Assembly: GCA_905479835.1 (NCBI GenBank)
Contig: CAJQNZ010000001.1
Location: 1 to 41,875 of the forward strand
DNA length: 41,875 nt
Direction: 5' to 3'
From: an uncultured Flavobacteriaceae bacterium
GTDB lineage: Bacteria; Bacteroidota; Bacteroidia; Flavobacteriales; Flavobacteriaceae
Below, piece by piece: positions 15,289-21,871 of the stretch. The position numbers and the translations under genes are program-made. How positions within the stretch are numbered: the first letter of the stretch is position 1; each line of letters begins with the position of its first letter. Below the pieces are notes generated by a model. That model was not told the origin of the DNA and searched no databases. It was given only the letters and a program-made list of their open reading frames with translations.

Positions 15289-16431
15289 TTAAATTTTGTT
15301 GATTATTTCTGCTGCTCTTTTTAAAGTTTCATCATTTTTCGCAAAACAAAATCGAAGTATTTTATCATCTTGTCCATTACTATTAAAAACAGATAGCGGA
15401 ATTGAGGCAATTTTATGTTCTAAAATTAATCTTTTAGAAAAACTAACATCATTTTCATCCGTAATATCAGTATAATCCAATCCTTGAAAATAAGTTCCTT
15501 GAGAAGTCGTAAATTTAAATCGAGAGCCTTTGATTAAGTCTAAAAATAAATCTCTTTTCTCTTGATAATAATCTGATAATTCTAAATAATGTTTTGGTTG
15601 TTTTAAATAGTCTGAAATTGCCTTCTGTATAGGATGATTTACACAAAAAACATTGAATTGATGTACTTTTTTAAACTCATCCATCAATTCTTTAGGAGCA
15701 CAACAGTATCCGATTTTCCAACCTGTAACATGAAATGTCTTTCCAAAAGAGGCAACTATAAAGCTTCGTGATTTTAAATCTGGAAATAAACAGGCACTTT
15801 GATGCTTCACTCCATCAAAAATAATGTGTTCATACACTTCATCACTCAATACAATGATATTGGTACCTCTAGTCAATTCCTGTAATTGCAACATATCTTT
15901 ATTAGAAAAAATAGTTCCAGAAGGGTTGTGTGGTGTATTGATGATAATCATCTTCGTCTTTGAAGAAATATGCTTTTTTACCTCTTCCCAATCAACTTTA
16001 TAGTAGGGTGCATTTAATTGAATAGGAATCACTTTTCCGCCATTGAGTTCAATTGTAGGCTCGTAACAATCGTATGCAGGACAAAATAAGATTACCTCAT
16101 CCTCTTGTCTTATAAAAGTAGAAATAATCGTGTAAATCGCTTGTGTTGCTCCAGCAGTTACAGTAATTTCAGTTTCTGGATGATAGGTTGAATTGTAGCC
16201 TAGTGAAAACTTTTCAGAGATAGCATCTCTTAACTCTATAATTCCAGACATAGGAGCATATTGATTCTTACTAGAATTCATTGCTTTTGTGACCAAATCC
16301 AATAGTTCTTGGTCAGGCTCAAAATTAGGAAAGCCTTGTGACAAGTTTATAGCATTGTGCTTACTAGCCAATGCTCCCATTACTGTAAAAATCGTAGTAC
16401 CTAAATTAGGAAGTTTAGATGTGTGATGCAT
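15289..16431 (-). CDS. PLP-dependent aminotransferase, methionine/kynurenine aminotransferase type (YbdL-like)
   Basis: A fold-type I aminotransferase of 380 aa. Family landmarks are NLSQGFPNF near the N-terminus, TAGATQAI, the NTPHNPSGTIFS loop, SDEVYEHI, and the PLP lysine Lys231 in SFGKTFHVTGWKIGY. The N-terminal LSQGFP and the FGKTFHVTGWK loop are typical of the YbdL/kynurenine aminotransferase group, which uses methionine, aromatic amino acids or kynurenine. A kynurenine role would fit the tryptophan dioxygenase in this window, but the genes are 13 kb apart. Its nearest functional partner is the omega-amidase-like gene at 12073. Confidence 0.86.
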   Translation of the reverse strand: MHHTSKLPNLGTTIFTVMGALASKHNAINLSQGFPNFEPDQELLDLVTKAMNSSKNQYAPMSGIIELRDAISEKFSLGYNSTYHPETEITVTAGATQAIYTIISTFIRQEDEVILFCPAYDCYEPTIELNGGKVIPIQLNAPYYKVDWEEVKKHISSKTKMIIINTPHNPSGTIFSNKDMLQLQELTRGTNIIVLSDEVYEHIIFDGVKHQSACLFPDLKSRSFIVASFGKTFHVTGWKIGYCCAPKELMDEFKKVHQFNVFCVNHPIQKAISDYLKQPKHYLELSDYYQEKRDLFLDLIKGSRFKFTTSQGTYFQGLDYTDITDENDVSFSKRLILEHKIASIPLSVFNSNGQDDKILRFCFAKNDETLKRAAEIINKI

Positions 16432-16474
16432 GAAATGAATTTATTAATCCGTACTAAAATATTGTTTTTAAACT

Positions 16475-16508
16475 AAAAAATCCCAAATCTTTATAAGATT
16501 TGAGATTT
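16475..16508 (-). terminator. rho-independent terminator of the sdh operon
   Basis: A 14-bp stem (one mismatch) with a 3-nt TAT loop. On the minus strand it is followed by six T. It lies 25 bases after the sdhB stop. Confidence 0.82.
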
Positions 16509-16533
16509 TAAGTTATTAATTATTTTATAAAAA

Positions 16534-17280
16534 TTATCCTTGAGAGCTCGCTTTCATATATTCACGATTCATACGCGCAATATTTTCTAAAGAAATTCCT
16601 TTAGGGCATTCTACTTCACAAGCTCCGGTATTGGTACAGTTACCAAATCCTTCAGCATCCATTTGTGCAACCATATTTAAAACTCTATCGGTTGCTTCAA
16701 CTTGACCTTGTGGTAACAAAGCGTATTGAGAAACTTTAGCAGAAACAAATAACATCGCACTTGAATTTTTACAAGTTGCAACACAAGCTCCACAGCCTAT
16801 ACAAGTCGCAGCATCCATTGCTTGATCTGCAGCTATTTTAGAAATAGGAGTAGCATTTGCATCTTGCGTATTTCCCGAAGTATTGACTGAGATATATCCT
16901 CCTGCTTGTTGAATTCTATCAAATGAAGAACGATCAACCACAAGATCCTTAACTACAGGAAAAGCATTTGCTCTAAACGGCTCTATATAAATAGTATCGC
17001 CGTCTTTAAACATACGCATATGCAATTGACACGTTGTAACACCTTTATCAGGTCCATGTGCTTCTCCGTTGATATACATTGAGCACATTCCACATATTCC
17101 TTCACGACAATCATGATCAAATGCTACAGGTTCATCGCCTTTGTTTATTAATTGTTCATTTAAAACGTCCATCATTTCAAGAAATGACATATGTTCAGAG
17201 ATATCAGTTACTTTATATTCAACTAATCTCCCTTTATCGTTAGCATCTTTTTGACGCCAAATTTTTAATGTAAGATTCAT
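16534..17280 (-). CDS. sdhB: succinate dehydrogenase/fumarate reductase iron-sulfur subunit
   Basis: Carries electrons from the flavoprotein to the quinone site of complex II. It is 248 aa. The N-terminal [2Fe-2S] motif is CREGICGMC with a further Cys in TTCQLH. The C-terminal ferredoxin half has [11 protein letters not shown] for the [4Fe-4S] cluster and [15 protein letters not shown] for the [3Fe-4S] cluster. The pattern is that of B-type complex II with one two-haem cytochrome b subunit, which matches the sdhC found here. It is last in the operon. The ATG lies 17 bases after the inverted repeat of the S23 element, and there is no clear Shine-Dalgarno sequence. Confidence 0.95.
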
Positions 17281-17323
17281 AACTATTATGGTATTTAGTG
17301 ATTAGCGAAGAGCGAAAAGAGGA

Positions 17324-17686
17324 TTAGTTCTTTTCTTCCAGTTTTTTGATTAGAGAGTTTAGCATCTTGCTAATTTCAATAATTAAACTTTCTACTTCTT
17401 TACTATCATTTATATAGTTTAACTGTTTGGTTATTAATATTTGTGTTTCCAATTCATATAAAGAACCTCTTGAAATTCTTAAGAATTGAATATAATTTTT
17501 CCTTGATAATCTTCCCCAACCTTCAGCAATATTTGAAGGAACAGAAACTGAACATCTTCTCATTTGACTTGTTAAACCAAATCTTTCATCATCTGGAAAA
17601 GTTTTAGTAATCTCATAAATCATAGTTACAAGTTTCATTGACTTTTGCCAAATTATTAACTCTTTATATGATTTCAAACTACTCAT
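17324..17686 (-). CDS. four helix bundle protein, S23 / 23S rRNA IVS-encoded family
   Basis: A 120-aa all-alpha protein. The family signature is complete: an N-terminal SYKELIIWQKSMKLVTMIY, then FPDDERFGLTSQMRR, SVSVPSNIAEGWGR and YIQFLRISRGSLYELETQ. Members form pentameric helical barrels, share their fold with the Avd proteins of diversity-generating retroelements, and were first seen as ORFs in 23S rRNA intervening sequences. Biochemical function is unknown. It lies between sdhA (34 bases upstream) and sdhB (43 bases downstream) on the same strand, with no promoter or terminator of its own. It is therefore made from the sdh transcript. Nothing suggests that it is part of complex II. Confidence 0.9.
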   Translation of the reverse strand: MSSLKSYKELIIWQKSMKLVTMIYEITKTFPDDERFGLTSQMRRCSVSVPSNIAEGWGRLSRKNYIQFLRISRGSLYELETQILITKQLNYINDSKEVESLIIEISKMLNSLIKKLEEKN

Positions 17687-17687
17687 T

Positions 17688-17715
17688 TCTTTTCCCTCTT
17701 CTCTTTTCCCTCTTC
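17688..17715 (-). repeat. perfect 14-nt tandem repeat over the S23 gene ribosome-binding region
   Basis: Two identical copies of GAAGAGGGAAAAGA (minus strand; 17702-17715 then 17688-17701) end one base before the ATG of the S23 gene. The purine-rich GAGGGA is the best Shine-Dalgarno-like sequence in this region. The outer copy overlaps the inverted-repeat arm. Confidence 0.75.
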
Positions 17716-17720
17716 GCTAA

Positions 17721-19724
17721 TTACTTATAAGACCTCGTCTTCAACTCAATATCATTAAATTCTAATTGTTCTTTATGCAGTATCGCTTCGCTAGGTTTCC
17801 CTACATATTCCCAAGCAGCAACATAAGCGTAATTCTCATCATCACGTTTCGCCTCTCCATCTTCTGTAACATGTTCTTCACGGAAATGACCTCCACAAGA
17901 TTCTTCACGATTCAAAGCATCTTTAGCAAACAACTCACCCAATTCTATGAAATCTGCTACTCTTCCTGCTTTTTCTAATTCTTGATTAAATTCATTCAGT
18001 CCTCCAGGAACATTTACATTCTTCCAGAAATCTTTACTTACCTCTTGAATTTCTTGAATCGCTTCTTCCAATCCTTTTTTATTTCTAGACATACCACATT
18101 TTTCCCACATGATATTACCCAATTTCTTATGGTAATAATCCACAGAATGCGTTCCTTTATTATTGATAAAGAAGTCTAATTGATCTTTCACAGATTTTTC
18201 TGCTTCGTCAAATTCTGGAGTTTCTGTAGAAATAGTTCCTGTACGAATATCACCTGATAAATAGTCTCCAATTGTATATGGCAATACGAAATATCCATCG
18301 GCAAGACCTTGCATTAATGCAGAAGCTCCAAGCCTATTTGCTCCGTGATCAGAAAAATTTGCTTCTCCGATACAATACAATCCTTCAACTGAAGTCATTA
18401 AATTATAATCAACCCATACGCCTCCCATTGTATAGTGAACGGCTGGATAAATCATCATAGGAGTTTCATATGGATTCTGATCTACAATTTTCTCGTACAT
18501 CTGAAATAAATTTCCATATTTTGCTTCAACAATTGCTTTTCCTAAATCGTAAATTTCTTTTTCCGATGGATTTGAAACATTATGTATCTTCGCTTGCTCT
18601 TTTCCATAACGAGAAATAGCAGAAGCAAAATCTAAATATACTGCTTCTCCAGTTGCATTGACTCCATAACCAGCATCACAACGTTCTTTTGCTGCTCTAG
18701 AAGCAACATCACGTGGAACTAGATTTCCAAAGGCAGGATAACGTCTTTCTAGGAAATAATCTCTTTCATCAGCAGTTAAGTCAGTCGGTTTTTTAGTCCC
18801 TTCCTTTATTGCTTTTACATCTTCTAAATTTTTAGGCACCCATATACGACCATCATTACGTAACGATTCCGACATCAAGGTTAATTTAGACTGATAGTCT
18901 CCACTTCGTGGAATACATGTTGGATGAATCTGCGTATAACAAGGATTAGCGAAATAGGCTCCTTTTTTATGAATTTTCCAAGCTGCAGTAGCATTTGAAC
19001 CCATTGCGTTGGTTGATAAGAAATATACATTTCCATATCCACCAGAAGCAATCACAACTGCATGTGCAGAATGACGTTCTATTTCTCCGGTAATCAAGTT
19101 ACGTGCAATAATTCCTCTCGCTTTTCCATCAACTTTTACAACATCAAGCATTTCATGACGATTGTGCATCGTGATTTTTCCTCTCGCTATCTGTCTATTC
19201 ATTGCTGAATATGCACCTAATAATAATTGTTGACCAGTTTGTCCTTTGGCATAAAAAGTTCTTGAAACCAATACTCCTCCAAACGAACGATTGTCAAGCA
19301 ATCCTCCATAATCTCTTGCAAATGGAACTCCTTGTGCAACACATTGATCAATAATATTTCCTGAAACCTCAGCAAGACGGTGAACATTTGCTTCTCTTGA
19401 ACGATAATCTCCACCTTTTATGGTATCGTAAAATAAACGGTAGTTAGAATCTCCATCTCCTTGGTAATTTTTTGCAGCATTAATTCCTCCTTGAGCAGCA
19501 ATTGAATGTGCTCTACGTGGAGAATCTTGGTAACAAAATGCTTTTACATTGTACCCTAATTCAGCCAATGTTGCTGCTGCAGAACCTCCAGCGAGACCTG
19601 TTCCTACTACTATAACGTCTATTGAACGCTTATTGGCAGGATTTACTAGGTCAATATGGTTTTTATAATCGGTCCACTTATCTGATATTGGACCTTTAGG
19701 TACTTTAGAATTTAATGTTGTCAT
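17721..19724 (-). CDS. sdhA: succinate dehydrogenase/fumarate reductase flavoprotein subunit
   Basis: Oxidises succinate to fumarate with covalently bound FAD. It is 667 aa. The dinucleotide-binding motif [12 protein letters not shown] covers residues 39-50, with glycines 41, 43 and 46. The FAD-linking His73 lies in [11 protein letters not shown]. Further landmarks are QIHPTCIP and the substrate/FAD segment [12 protein letters not shown]. The length and the [13 protein letters not shown] segment are those of B-type complex II. It starts nine bases after sdhC. The stop codon TAA falls inside the right arm of the inverted repeat that frames the S23 gene, so the present C-terminus (RSYK) is set by that junction. 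Confidence 0.96.
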
Positions 19725-19733
19725 ACCTTATTT

Positions 19734-20411
19734 TTAATGATTAAAATGATGGAAAAGTGCGATAAAAACAAATCCTAATGGAACTAAAATAGCATACGCT
19801 TTTCCAAATGTTTCTAAGCCTTTCGTATATTTATTATTGGCTCCCATAGATTGAAATGCCGAATTGAACCCATGTAATAAATGCAATGCTAAAAACACAA
19901 ATGCAATTACATAAACTCCAACTCGTAATGGATTTACAAACTTGTGTTGTAGTTCTTCAAAATAACGATATCCTTCGCCATCAGGTAATAGTCCAGACAT
20001 ATCGCCTTGAACAAATTTTATGTTTAATTCTGGAATCCAAAAATCTATAAAGTGTAATATTATAAATGCTAGAATTGCCAATCCGCTCCATATCATGTTT
20101 CTTGACATCCATGAAGAATTAGCTCCTCCATTATTTTTGGCATATTTCACAGTTCTTGACCTGATATTTTTCAATTCTAAAATAAACCCCATCACAAAAT
20201 GAAACACAACACCAAATATTAAAATAGGTTGCATTACGTATTGAATCAATGGATTGGTTCCCATAAAATGAGAAATTTCATTGAAAATATCAGCACTAAA
20301 AACTGAAGTAATATTTATTGCAAAATGTTGTAGTAAAAAAAACATTAAGAATAATGCTGAAAGTGCCATTGACACTTTTCTTGCAATCGACGAAGATAAA
20401 AGTCCGCTCAT
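19734..20411 (-). CDS. sdhC: succinate dehydrogenase cytochrome b subunit, B-type
   Basis: Membrane anchor of complex II that binds haem b and reduces or oxidises quinone. It is 225 aa with five hydrophobic segments (about 14-36, 55-80, 105-127, 155-178 and 200-222). The His residues spread over these segments (QHF, FHF, LHF, LHLLHGF) include the likely haem ligands. One fused cytochrome b subunit instead of separate SdhC and SdhD is the B-type arrangement of Bacteroidota. It is first in the sdhCAB operon, with a near-consensus promoter 28 bases before its ATG. Confidence 0.93.
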   Translation of the reverse strand: MSGLLSSSIARKVSMALSALFLMFFLLQHFAINITSVFSADIFNEISHFMGTNPLIQYVMQPILIFGVVFHFVMGFILELKNIRSRTVKYAKNNGGANSSWMSRNMIWSGLAILAFIILHFIDFWIPELNIKFVQGDMSGLLPDGEGYRYFEELQHKFVNPLRVGVYVIAFVFLALHLLHGFNSAFQSMGANNKYTKGLETFGKAYAILVPLGFVFIALFHHFNH

Positions 20412-20438
20412 GTAGTTATGAAAATTGGTTTAGAAAAA

Positions 20439-20470
20439 CAAAAATAAGGTAAAGTGAAACTTTAGACAAA
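20439..20470 (-). promoter_or_regulatory. promoter of the sdhCAB operon
   Basis: On the minus strand TTTG (20467-20470) is followed by exactly 20 bases and then TATTTTTG (20439-20446). This matches the Bacteroidota primary-sigma consensus TTTG / TAnnTTTG with ideal spacing. It is the clearest promoter in the window. The predicted leader is only about 20 bases long. Confidence 0.75.
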
Positions 20471-20550
20471 CTTTGCGTCTGTTTTATACCGTATTTAGAA
20501 GCAATCTAAAAACGTGTTCATGAAAATTAGAATGAATCCATACAATTGTA

Positions 20551-20558
20551 TAAATTTG
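20551..20558 (+). promoter_or_regulatory. -7 box TAaaTTTG upstream of the aminopeptidase gene
   Basis: An exact TAnnTTTG match 23 bases before the ATG at 20582. The -33 region has no TTG at normal spacing. It is divergent from the sdh promoter. Confidence 0.5.
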
Positions 20559-20581
20559 CTAGAGAATTAAACTAATAAAGC

Positions 20582-21871
20582 ATGAAATATCTTCCAATAG
20601 ACAAAAATTTATTTGTAAAAAATCGTAAAAAATTTATGCATAAAATGAAGCCAAATTCCTTGGCTGTTTTTAATTCCAATGACATTTATCCAGTCAGCGC
20701 TGACAGCACATTACCATTTGCACAACACAGGGATATTTTCTATTTATGTGGTGTAGATCAAGAAGAAAGTATCTTGGTTTTATTTCCCAATGCTCTTAAA
20801 AAAGAACATCGAGAAATGTTGTTTTTAAAAGAGACTAATGAGCATATAGCGATATGGGAAGGAGAAAAATTAGATAAAAAAAAGGCTTTTGAAACTTCTG
20901 GAATTGAAACAGTATTTTGGTTACAAGATTTTGACAAAGTGTTTTTCAACTTGATGGTTGAGGCTGAAAATGTGTATTTAAACACCAATGAACATTATCG
21001 TGCTGCTGTAGAAACTGAAACTAGAGAAGACCGTTTTATAAAAAAATGTAAAACTGAATTTAAAGCGCATACTTACCTCCGTAGTCAACCTATTTTACAA
21101 CGAATTCGTTCTGTCAAAGAGCCTGAAGAAATTGCACTTATTCAACAAGCTTGCAACATTACCGAAAAAGGATTTCGTAGAGTTTTAGGCTTCACAAAGC
21201 CAAATGTTTGGGAATATGAAATTGAAGCAGAATACATACATGAATTTACTCGGAATCGTGCATGTGGCTTTGCATACACTCCAATTATTGCAAGTGGTTT
21301 TAATGCGAATGTATTGCATTATATTGAAAACAACCAAAAGTGTAAAAAAGGTGATGTTATCTTAATGGATGTAGGTGCAAGTTATGCGAATTATGCAAGT
21401 GACATGACACGAAGTATTCCTGTTTCTGGAAAATTTACAAAACGTCAAAAGCAAGTCTATAGTGCTGTTCTTCGTGTAAAAAAGGCGGCTGCAAAATTAT
21501 TGATCCCTGGAACTATCTGGTCGGAGTATCATCTAGCTGTTGGTGAAATAATGACGAAAGAATTGATAGGATTGGGATTGATTACGAAGGATGATGTTGT
21601 AAACGAAGATCCAAAATGGCCAGCATACAAGAAATATTTTATGCACGGAACATCTCATCATATGGGACTTGACACGCATGATTATGGAATTTTATCTGAA
21701 CCCATGCAAGCAAATATGGTGTTTACTGTCGAGCCTGGAATTTACATTCCTGAAGAAAATTTAGGAATTCGACTGGAGGACGATTATGTAATTCAAGAAA
21801 CTGGTGAGCCGTTTAACTTGATGGAAAATATTCCTATTGAAATTAAAGATATTGAGGCGTTGATGGAATAA
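20582..21871 (+). CDS. pepP: Xaa-Pro aminopeptidase (M24B)
   Basis: Removes N-terminal residues that precede proline; a cytosolic di-metal enzyme of 429 aa. The N-terminal AMP_N domain covers about 1-150 (FAQHRDIFYLCGVDQEES). The M24 domain carries the five metal ligands: Asp263 (MDVGAS), Asp274 (ASDMTRS), His359 (GTSHHMG), Glu384 (VEPGIY) and Glu399 (RLEDDY). Together with the S46 dipeptidyl-peptidase it fits a peptide-using lifestyle. No signal peptide is seen. Confidence 0.93.
   Translation: MKYLPIDKNLFVKNRKKFMHKMKPNSLAVFNSNDIYPVSADSTLPFAQHRDIFYLCGVDQEESILVLFPNALKKEHREMLFLKETNEHIAIWEGEKLDKKKAFETSGIETVFWLQDFDKVFFNLMVEAENVYLNTNEHYRAAVETETREDRFIKKCKTEFKAHTYLRSQPILQRIRSVKEPEEIALIQQACNITEKGFRRVLGFTKPNVWEYEIEAEYIHEFTRNRACGFAYTPIIASGFNANVLHYIENNQKCKKGDVILMDVGASYANYASDMTRSIPVSGKFTKRQKQVYSAVLRVKKAAAKLLIPGTIWSEYHLAVGEIMTKELIGLGLITKDDVVNEDPKWPAYKKYFMHGTSHHMGLDTHDYGILSEPMQANMVFTVEPGIYIPEENLGIRLEDDYVIQETGEPFNLMENIPIEIKDIEALME

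Follow-up and report, generated by a model that had tools for sequence, protein, structure and literature searches.

We examined a 41,875-nt stretch of DNA from an uncultured Flavobacteriaceae bacterium (contig CAJQNZ010000001.1, positions 1 to 41,875), called the window here, in which a gene for an S23-type four-helix-bundle protein lies between two genes of the succinate dehydrogenase (SDH) operon. Open reading frames (ORFs) and profile matches give the order sdhC-sdhA-S23-sdhB on the minus strand. The original prediction for this DNA, made from the letters alone, was that an inverted repeat with 24-nt arms frames only the S23 gene and takes in the sdhA stop codon, and that an element like the intervening sequences (IVS) of bacterial 23S rRNA had entered a core metabolic mRNA. 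Our repeat search confirmed the framing: arms at 17297-17321 and 17701-17725 are 92% complementary, enclose the S23 gene and no other, and include the stop codon of sdhA. Each arm is 25 nt long, one base longer at its outer end than had been predicted. The features are listed in the order of the minus strand.

19734..20411, minus strand: sdhC, cytochrome b558 subunit, host operon (TIGR02046, E 5.3e-46)
17721..19724, minus strand: sdhA (ORF; NF005749 and TIGR01811), with its stop codon, 17721-17723, inside the 5' arm of the element
17701..17725, minus strand: 5' arm of the predicted mRNA stem, a degenerate heptamer array, AGTAATTAGCGAAGAGGGAAAAGAG (repeat search; period-7 excess 0.39; 0 of 200 shuffles)
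17687..17700, minus strand: purine-rich AAGAGGGAAAAGAA, separating the 5' arm from the S23 start codon and repeating part of the arm (sequence)
17324..17686, minus strand: S23/IVP four-helix-bundle gene, 120 aa, in the predicted loop (PF05635, TIGR02436, PDB 2gsc_A, dN/dS)
17297..17321, minus strand: 3' arm of the predicted mRNA stem, 92% complementary to the 5' arm over 25 positions (repeat search and fold)
17281..17296, minus strand: leader remaining between the stem and the sdhB start codon, the 3' arm ending 16 nt ahead of that codon (sequence)
16534..17280, minus strand: sdhB, iron-sulfur subunit, host operon (NF005746, E 4.1e-131)

The S23 protein matches PF05635 (23S_rRNA_IVP) with E 1.1e-40 and 138.6 bits against a cut-off of 33.8, TIGR02436 (four helix bundle) with E 1e-39 and, by sequence, the solved structure PDB 2gsc_A (XCC0516) with E 1.5e-27; 2gsc is described as a homopentamer of four-helix bundles (PMC4990558). 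Its 120-aa ORF is the single ORF of at least 80 aa between the arms, which stand 379 nt apart in a unit that measures 429 nt with the arms included. The purine-rich segment ahead of the gene may hold its ribosome site. A blind scan of the window returned seven inverted repeats scoring at least 14, with the S23 arms first at 20 and the next at 16, and 0 of 200 mononucleotide shuffles reached the score of the arms. Both arms consist of degenerate heptamer repeats, and the one on the 5' side of the RNA is poor in C; among the six inverted repeats long enough to test for a 7-nt period, the excess was 0.39 for the S23 arms and at most 0.03 for the others. Folded as RNA, 17270-17740 of the minus strand reaches -105.3 kcal/mol (z -4.62; none of 100 shuffles folds as stably), and the arms are paired in both the minimum-energy and the centroid predicted structures. 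Rfam gave no match above its gathering score in 16400-20600, and the unit lies outside rRNA, unlike the defining site of S23-bearing IVS.

Occupied and empty sdhA-sdhB junctions

A search of genome contigs with the S23 protein gave 178 confirmed loci, of which we analysed the best 80. In 62 of these the gene sits at the sdhA-sdhB junction, always in sense orientation; two more sit at a contig end beside one sdh gene, and 16 are elsewhere. After the two loci cut at contig ends (L051 and L061, out of 64 with an sdh gene) had been dropped, the 62 relatives, the window and locus L114 made up 64 occupied junctions. Whether relatives that keep the gene also keep its arms had been named as a test of the original prediction, and the outcome favours an element: the arms pair significantly in 50 of the 64 junctions (at most 2 of 200 shuffles as good). 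The arm words vary between hosts (TAGCGAA, TAGCCAA, TAGGCAA, TAGTTAA, AGGATTGC and others). Mean pairing within this sdh set was 13.54 for the arms of a locus with each other and 9.63 when arms were permuted between loci (z 11.7), and a locus's own arms did better than those of its five nearest S23 loci (mean 11.84) in 40 of 63 cases (sign test p 0.043, Wilcoxon p 0.002). Where the arm score was at least 12 (n=42), the unit lay a median of 3 nt after the stop codon and 18 nt before the sdhB ATG. In Formosa maritima (L005) a run of N interrupts the 5' arm of the sdh element, as might be expected of a hard-to-assemble repeat array.

We then looked at sdhA-sdhB junctions in the 30 best of 38 genomes with an sdhB match, comprising the window's own genome and its relatives. 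The S23 gene is missing from 27 of the 30. The occupied ones are the window, a relative of the same genus (G011) and a third genome (G030) whose S23 protein is 40% identical and has a different arm word; among same-genus relatives with a located sdhB, 1 of 12 carries S23 at the junction. Measured up to sdhB from the final sdhA codon, with the stop codon counted in, 22 of the gene-less junctions span 4-30 nt and five span 45-78 nt, and the four of these five that were folded form hairpins (fold z -4.75, -3.90, -3.51 and -2.37). For a target-site duplication we made a by-eye comparison only, in which the gene-less junctions were short and variable and no direct repeat was recognised. The junction of G030 (L114) thus holds an S23 subtype with arm words other than those of the window type, and the fadB-fadA junctions described below are occupied by two S23 clusters, again with different arm words. 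Some junctions look like shared landing sites, because one junction holds different S23 subtypes with different arm words.

The history of the gene was compared with that of its hosts by pairwise distances, leaving out 3 of 63 S23 loci with short sdh stretches. S23 usually diverges more, its distance being smaller than that of sdhA in only 14 of 1770 locus pairs. The window and Lacinutrix mariniflava are one of those 14, with distances of 0.075 for S23, 0.184 for sdhA and 0.145 for sdhB, and with third-codon identities of 0.78 for S23 against 0.53 and 0.57 for sdhA and sdhB. Flanking gene conversion with Lacinutrix was rejected, as third-codon identity is not raised in the 60-codon blocks beside the junction (0.57 and 0.58), although shorter tracts could still have been converted. 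Distances rank-correlate at 0.45 between S23 and sdhA, compared with 0.86 between sdhA and sdhB. Trees were built from 31 loci (S23) and 29 loci (sdhA and sdhB together) chosen from the 63. The sdhA and sdhB tree groups the window with the same-genus locus L012 (SH-aLRT 96), and those data reject a grouping with Lacinutrix (L003; p 4e-70), whereas the S23 alignment rejects the clade of the window and L012 (approximately unbiased test, p 0.0043), which is at odds with vertical inheritance of S23 along with sdhA and sdhB. Because these histories conflict, we infer that S23 was probably exchanged into the same sdhA-sdhB slot.

The gene is under purifying selection, with a ratio of nonsynonymous to synonymous divergence (dN/dS) of 0.03-0.12 in nine of ten pairs (dS was 0 in the tenth) and of 0.08-0.12 between the window and L003, L004, L005 and L010. 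An in-frame stop occurs in 5 of 63 junction copies. As judged from sequence, patchy presence, conflicting history and occasional stops are the pattern of a mobile unit and not of an operon part. Alternatively, S23 could be a host gene of the sdh operon, inherited vertically with losses, whose protein and hairpin regulate or process the sdh mRNA and so affect its subunit ratio or stability. The junction shared by 62 of 80 near relatives and the purifying selection would fit that role, and the modelled stem, placed between two cistrons, could shield the mRNA or divide it. It is harder to square with the absence of the gene from 11 of the 12 same-genus relatives in which sdhB was located, with the conflict between S23 and host genes, with the stops in junction copies, or with a 40%-identical S23 and other arm words at L114; moreover, the protein family occurs in unrelated operons, one subtype in several of them. 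We consider a host gene decidedly unlikely. The original prediction had also raised control of SDH subunit ratios, and as the element's reason to exist this seems unlikely, because the gene is present in 1 of 12 same-genus relatives and stops interrupt 5 of 63 junction copies.

S23 copies and heptamer arms across the family

Within the window's family, 225 of 299 genomes had a PF05635 match, and 0 of 14 controls did; the richest genomes had at least 15 matches, a figure that equals the number of candidates scored. The family sample comprised 109 loci at 107 distinct places and 116 copies, or 114 after removal of identical peptides. Both neighbours are sense with respect to S23 in 95 of the 114 copies and both antisense in none; 11 are sense upstream and antisense downstream, 6 are sense upstream with no neighbour downstream, and 2 are antisense upstream. 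Wherever the two neighbours share a strand, then, S23 is in sense (95 of 95). This modifies the idea of an IVS-like element in a core metabolic mRNA: the gene-less junctions (27 of 30), the significant arms and the conflicting gene history uphold the element, and what falls away is its isolated entry, since 95 of 114 family copies lie in codirectional junctions.

Clusters of S23 proteins at 60% identity associate with particular junctions of core genes. The largest has 26 of its 36 copies between genes for enoyl-CoA hydratase and thiolase (fadB-fadA, both neighbours matching), and a second cluster of three copies lies at the same upstream gene. Further sites are the two halves of metH, panB-pseudouridine synthase, hemC/D-hemE, trpG-trpD, leuA-leuB, an rfbB-rfbA-like pair, a GNAT gene-hisA, and groES (3 copies; groEL recognised downstream in one). 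These site genes were checked with Pfam in one representative each, and names beyond the Pfam labels are our interpretation. One locus (L163; G295:C1:562000-566000) holds three equal-score S23 units in direct tandem, 398 bp apart, in a single hem-like junction (named by eye); the unit can therefore duplicate as a block. Among the 16 non-sdh loci of the best 80, 15 were scored (the flank of L077 is too short) and 11 have significant arms at the same shuffle threshold, 9 of the 11 lying outside Bacteroidota by record title. Only part of these loci have two close sense neighbours (for example L028 and L071 at atpH-atpA, L052 and L057), and several, L047, L059 and L069 among them, have no close same-strand ORF of 100 aa on both sides. 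L071, from Phycisphaerales, has S23 at an atpH-atpA junction (Pfam-checked), where the inverted heptamer array around it is perfect, its two arms agreeing at 34 of 34 nt. L028, also planctomycete, likewise has S23 between atpH and atpA in inverted heptamer arrays (genes not Pfam-checked).

Flanks of 111 of the 114 family copies were analysed for periodicity and pairing, flanks shorter than 60 nt being left out. At a lag of 7 the match was 0.446 in upstream and 0.489 in downstream flanks, compared with 0.269 for control windows and 0.277 within the S23 gene, and it was also raised at lags 14 and 21. In 83 of 111 copies at least one flank had 7 as its dominant lag; the same was true of 14 of 450 control windows. 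Mean arm scores were 12.15 for a copy's own arms, 10.23 for arms of other loci in the same cluster, 7.30 for arms of other clusters and 6.87 for shifted windows. The arms are strand-asymmetric, with more G than C in the 5' arm in 84 of 92 distinct arm pairs scoring at least 12 (two duplicates dropped), which an RNA function would explain. Sharing of arm words, as the Jaccard index, was highest for the same cluster at the same site (0.115), followed by the same cluster at another site in another genome (0.059, n=347), another cluster in the same genome (0.036, n=47) and another cluster at the same site (0.028, n=96); for sharing within clusters the Mann-Whitney p was 0.00015, the pairs not being independent. 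By this sequence comparison, arm words follow the S23 subtype more than the site or the genome. Since copies of one S23 cluster have arm words in common even where site and genome differ, the travelling unit probably includes the arms.

Further genomic copies of the arm had been suggested as a sign of such an element. None was found in the window's genome at zero to two mismatches, which says little because arms differ even between close hosts. At three mismatches there were four sites, against three for a reversed control pattern, and these were rejected as copies. Two of the four overlap within a one-sided heptamer array, TTAGCGAAAAGGGAATAGCGAAGAGCGGAAAG (L086; G000:C53:16591-16624), which follows the stop codon of a kdsB-like gene (named by eye) and has no S23 gene and no evident partner arm. 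The same genome holds a second S23 gene, 24% identical, in sense between moeA-like and moaC-like genes (L002; G000:C74:16232-16558; neighbours named by eye), whose flanks, AGTTTTGAGTT and AACTTAAAACTA, look like a decayed version of the element's architecture.

Two other explanations bear on these distributions. The first is a unit mobile at the DNA level, of the kind of a miniature inverted-repeat transposable element (MITE), served in trans by an unknown transposase, with S23 as cargo and the RNA stem incidental. Such a unit would account for the terminal inverted repeats, for at least 15 S23 copies in some genomes, for the gene-less sites, for the conflict of gene histories and for the hairpins at four gene-less junctions (z -2.37 to -4.75). 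It does not lead one to expect that all 95 strand-agreeing copies are in sense, as insertion in both orientations was not seen, nor that 84 of 92 arm pairs are strand-asymmetric, that units at sdh fall between a stop codon and the next leader, or that arm words follow the S23 subtype. The unit encodes no transposase within the arm-framed interval, to which the search was confined and in which the IVP gene is the sole ORF of at least 80 aa, although a MITE would lack one too. We regard a MITE-like unit as rather unlikely.

The second is homologous recombination between heptamer arrays already present at the junctions, which would replace the gene within the arms with no dedicated mobility, while the arms expand by slippage. 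Arm words do agree best when cluster and site are both the same (Jaccard 0.115), three units stand in tandem 398 bp apart in L163, hairpins occur at four gene-less junctions, and the flanking codons lack raised similarity. Recombination of this kind leaves unexplained both the first occupation of new junctions and the presence of one subtype with similar arm words at different sites. It would also draw on arrays already in place, and a blind scan of the same-genus genome G005 (400 kb, 395 kb without N) returned two marginal period-7 inverted repeats, with a scan that is insensitive: in its strict form it finds framing arms in 23 of 114 S23 copies, and over the same 313 kb it picks up seven further inverted repeats of period 7. 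For that reason the contrast with G005, on which we rejected a general abundance of heptamer hairpins as the cause, is only indicative. We judge recombination between resident arrays quite unlikely.

A candidate mobile stem-loop in messages

We think it reasonably probable, with considerable room for doubt, that the S23 unit in the window is one copy of a mobile, probably selfish, IVS-type stem-loop element that occupies mRNA junctions. Such an element, laid out as a 5' heptamer array, the S23/IVP gene and an inverted heptamer array, would have inserted in sense between the sdhA stop codon and the sdhB leader, and it is presumably co-transcribed with the sdh operon. Insertion would be tolerated because the unit starts at the upstream stop and leaves about 18 nt ahead of the next start, so that both host cistrons would keep their reading frames and leader and stay translatable. 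In the RNA, the arms would pair and leave the S23 gene in the loop between them. If rRNA intervening sequences are a guide, RNase III probably cuts the stem, which would free an S23 RNA and leave sdhCA and sdhB on messages of their own. The S23 protein probably binds the arm or the stem and aids the spread or survival of the unit, presumably with no benefit to the host. Sense orientation, asymmetric arms, placement between stop and leader, and an arm word tied to the subtype together point to an RNA-level function.

Several observations weigh against this interpretation. Arms of different loci in one cluster pair nearly as well as a copy's own (10.23 against 12.15), so the compensating change is modest. 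Pairing is significant in only 58 of 111 family copies (at most 2 of 200 shuffles), compared with 50 of 64 in the sdh set, and among the 15 scored non-sdh loci L053, L066, L072 and L079 fail the arm-pairing test. Family arms also fit the gap more loosely than those at sdh, lying -20 to +26 nt from the stop and -11 to +58 nt from the next start (10-90% ranges, n=45). The family copies come from top-scoring matches and are not a random sample, and their neighbours were called mechanically as the nearest ORF of at least 90 aa. Neighbours on one strand are frequent in any case, making up 25 of 34 pairs in the window and 203 of 244 among the best-80 loci, and for this reason the weight falls on the orientation of S23 and not on the junction. 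Resolution of the S23 tree is poor, 19 of its 28 inner branches being open, and the window does not group with Lacinutrix in it; purifying selection on S23 could equally mean host use. Finally, the authors who describe the Coxiella element think that its S23 protein is probably not made in vivo (PMC4990558), which speaks against a needed protein there.

More tentatively, and as a possibility that we would not call probable, S23/IVP genes may be the signature of a class of mobile elements, acting at the RNA level, that is widespread and has gone unrecognised, namely sense-oriented stem-loops of inverted heptamer arrays at stop-start junctions of core operons in several phyla, each subtype with its own heptamer word, of which the rRNA IVS would be the special case that landed in rRNA. 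Movement through an RNA or complementary DNA intermediate, copied by a resident or visiting reverse transcriptase, would fit the sense orientation, the asymmetric arms and a protein related to Avd. In 26 genomes hand-picked from the PF05635 survey, PF00078 reverse transcriptases were present in 10 of 15 S23-rich and 2 of 10 S23-free genomes (Fisher p 0.04). The five S23-rich genomes with no PF00078 match include G020 and G281, with 15 S23 matches each. As a partner the reverse transcriptase is suggestive at most, for it is missing from a third of the rich carriers (5 of 15), and rich genomes may simply hold more mobile DNA. The single-contig genome G152, with 13 S23 matches, has 19 PF00078 matches, many of them equal-scoring.

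If the usual home of S23 genes is a housekeeping-operon junction within a subtype-matched heptamer array, then the role of the protein (perhaps arm recognition), the origin of IVS, the presence of S23 genes in cas loci and the scattered heptamer repeats could be tested as a single question. The operons that carry mobile stem-loops, which may split their messages, would then include core ones like sdh, fad, trp, leu and atp.

Comparison with known systems

Repetitive extragenic palindromes and bacterial interspersed mosaic elements (REP/BIME) are intergenic hairpin repeats. Like them, the window unit is an inverted repeat between cistrons and could stabilise the message upstream of it; it differs in containing a gene and in an arm word that is not repeated in the genome within two mismatches. 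The short tandemly repeated repetitive (STRR) sequences of cyanobacteria are period-7 short repeats, and the heptamers of the element are comparable to them in that respect. Closer in distribution are the TAACTGA heptamer repeats of Beggiatoaceae, Cyanobacteria and some Bacteroidetes (PMC4679880), which share the period of 7, a largely intergenic position near start and stop codons and a patchy spread across phyla. Those repeats are described as direct (PMC4679880), whereas arms of the window type are inverted, degenerate and frame an S23 gene; neither 'S23' nor 'helix bundle' occurs in the text of PMC4679880.

PF05635 and the Avd protein of diversity-generating retroelements are reported to be homologous (PMC10053308). 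The window protein scores below both cut-offs, at 34.9 bits for bAvd (cut-off 40) and 31.3 bits for Avd (cut-off 80), and its genome, G000, which is 82% complete, has no PF00078 reverse transcriptase match, a difference from diversity-generating retroelements.

The nearest relatives in anatomy are the S23-bearing IVS of 23S rRNA in Coxiella, Leptospira and others (PMC4990558), together with rRNA insertions carrying IVP ORFs in the candidate phyla radiation (PMC11270868), in which terminal inverted repeats likewise form a stem with a PF05635-type ORF in its loop. The Coxiella element is described as an S23 gene with a 28-bp stem, excision by RNase III and tandem heptamers ahead of the gene (PMC4990558). 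Its dimensions are close to those of the window unit, with 28 bp against 25 nt for the stem and 428-444 nt against 429 nt for the whole (PMC4990558). Both are patchy in occurrence, probably horizontally acquired and decaying in their ORF in places. What sets the window unit apart is its place in an operon mRNA junction and its arms, which are inverted heptamer arrays with a word tied to the S23 subtype. It thus resembles S23-bearing IVS in anatomy and mode and departs from them in lying outside rRNA; that it would be cut in the same way is an argument from analogy.

S23/IVP proteins are described as lacking a known function (PMC4990558) and are known mainly from fragmented rRNA. In the open PMC literature, judged by titles and the beginnings of abstracts and with subscription journals outside its scope, nothing linked S23 genes, inverted heptamer arrays and operon junctions. 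The nearest report concerns a 23S_rRNA_IVP gene between cmr3 and cmr2 in a Pleurocapsa cas locus (PMC3936711). As in the window, an IVP gene there stands between two genes of one locus; that account, in the parts available, makes no mention of arms and interprets the IVP genes as having a CRISPR-Cas-associated function (PMC3936711). By analogy with the window, reading them as junction elements might explain IVP genes in cas loci with no role in CRISPR.

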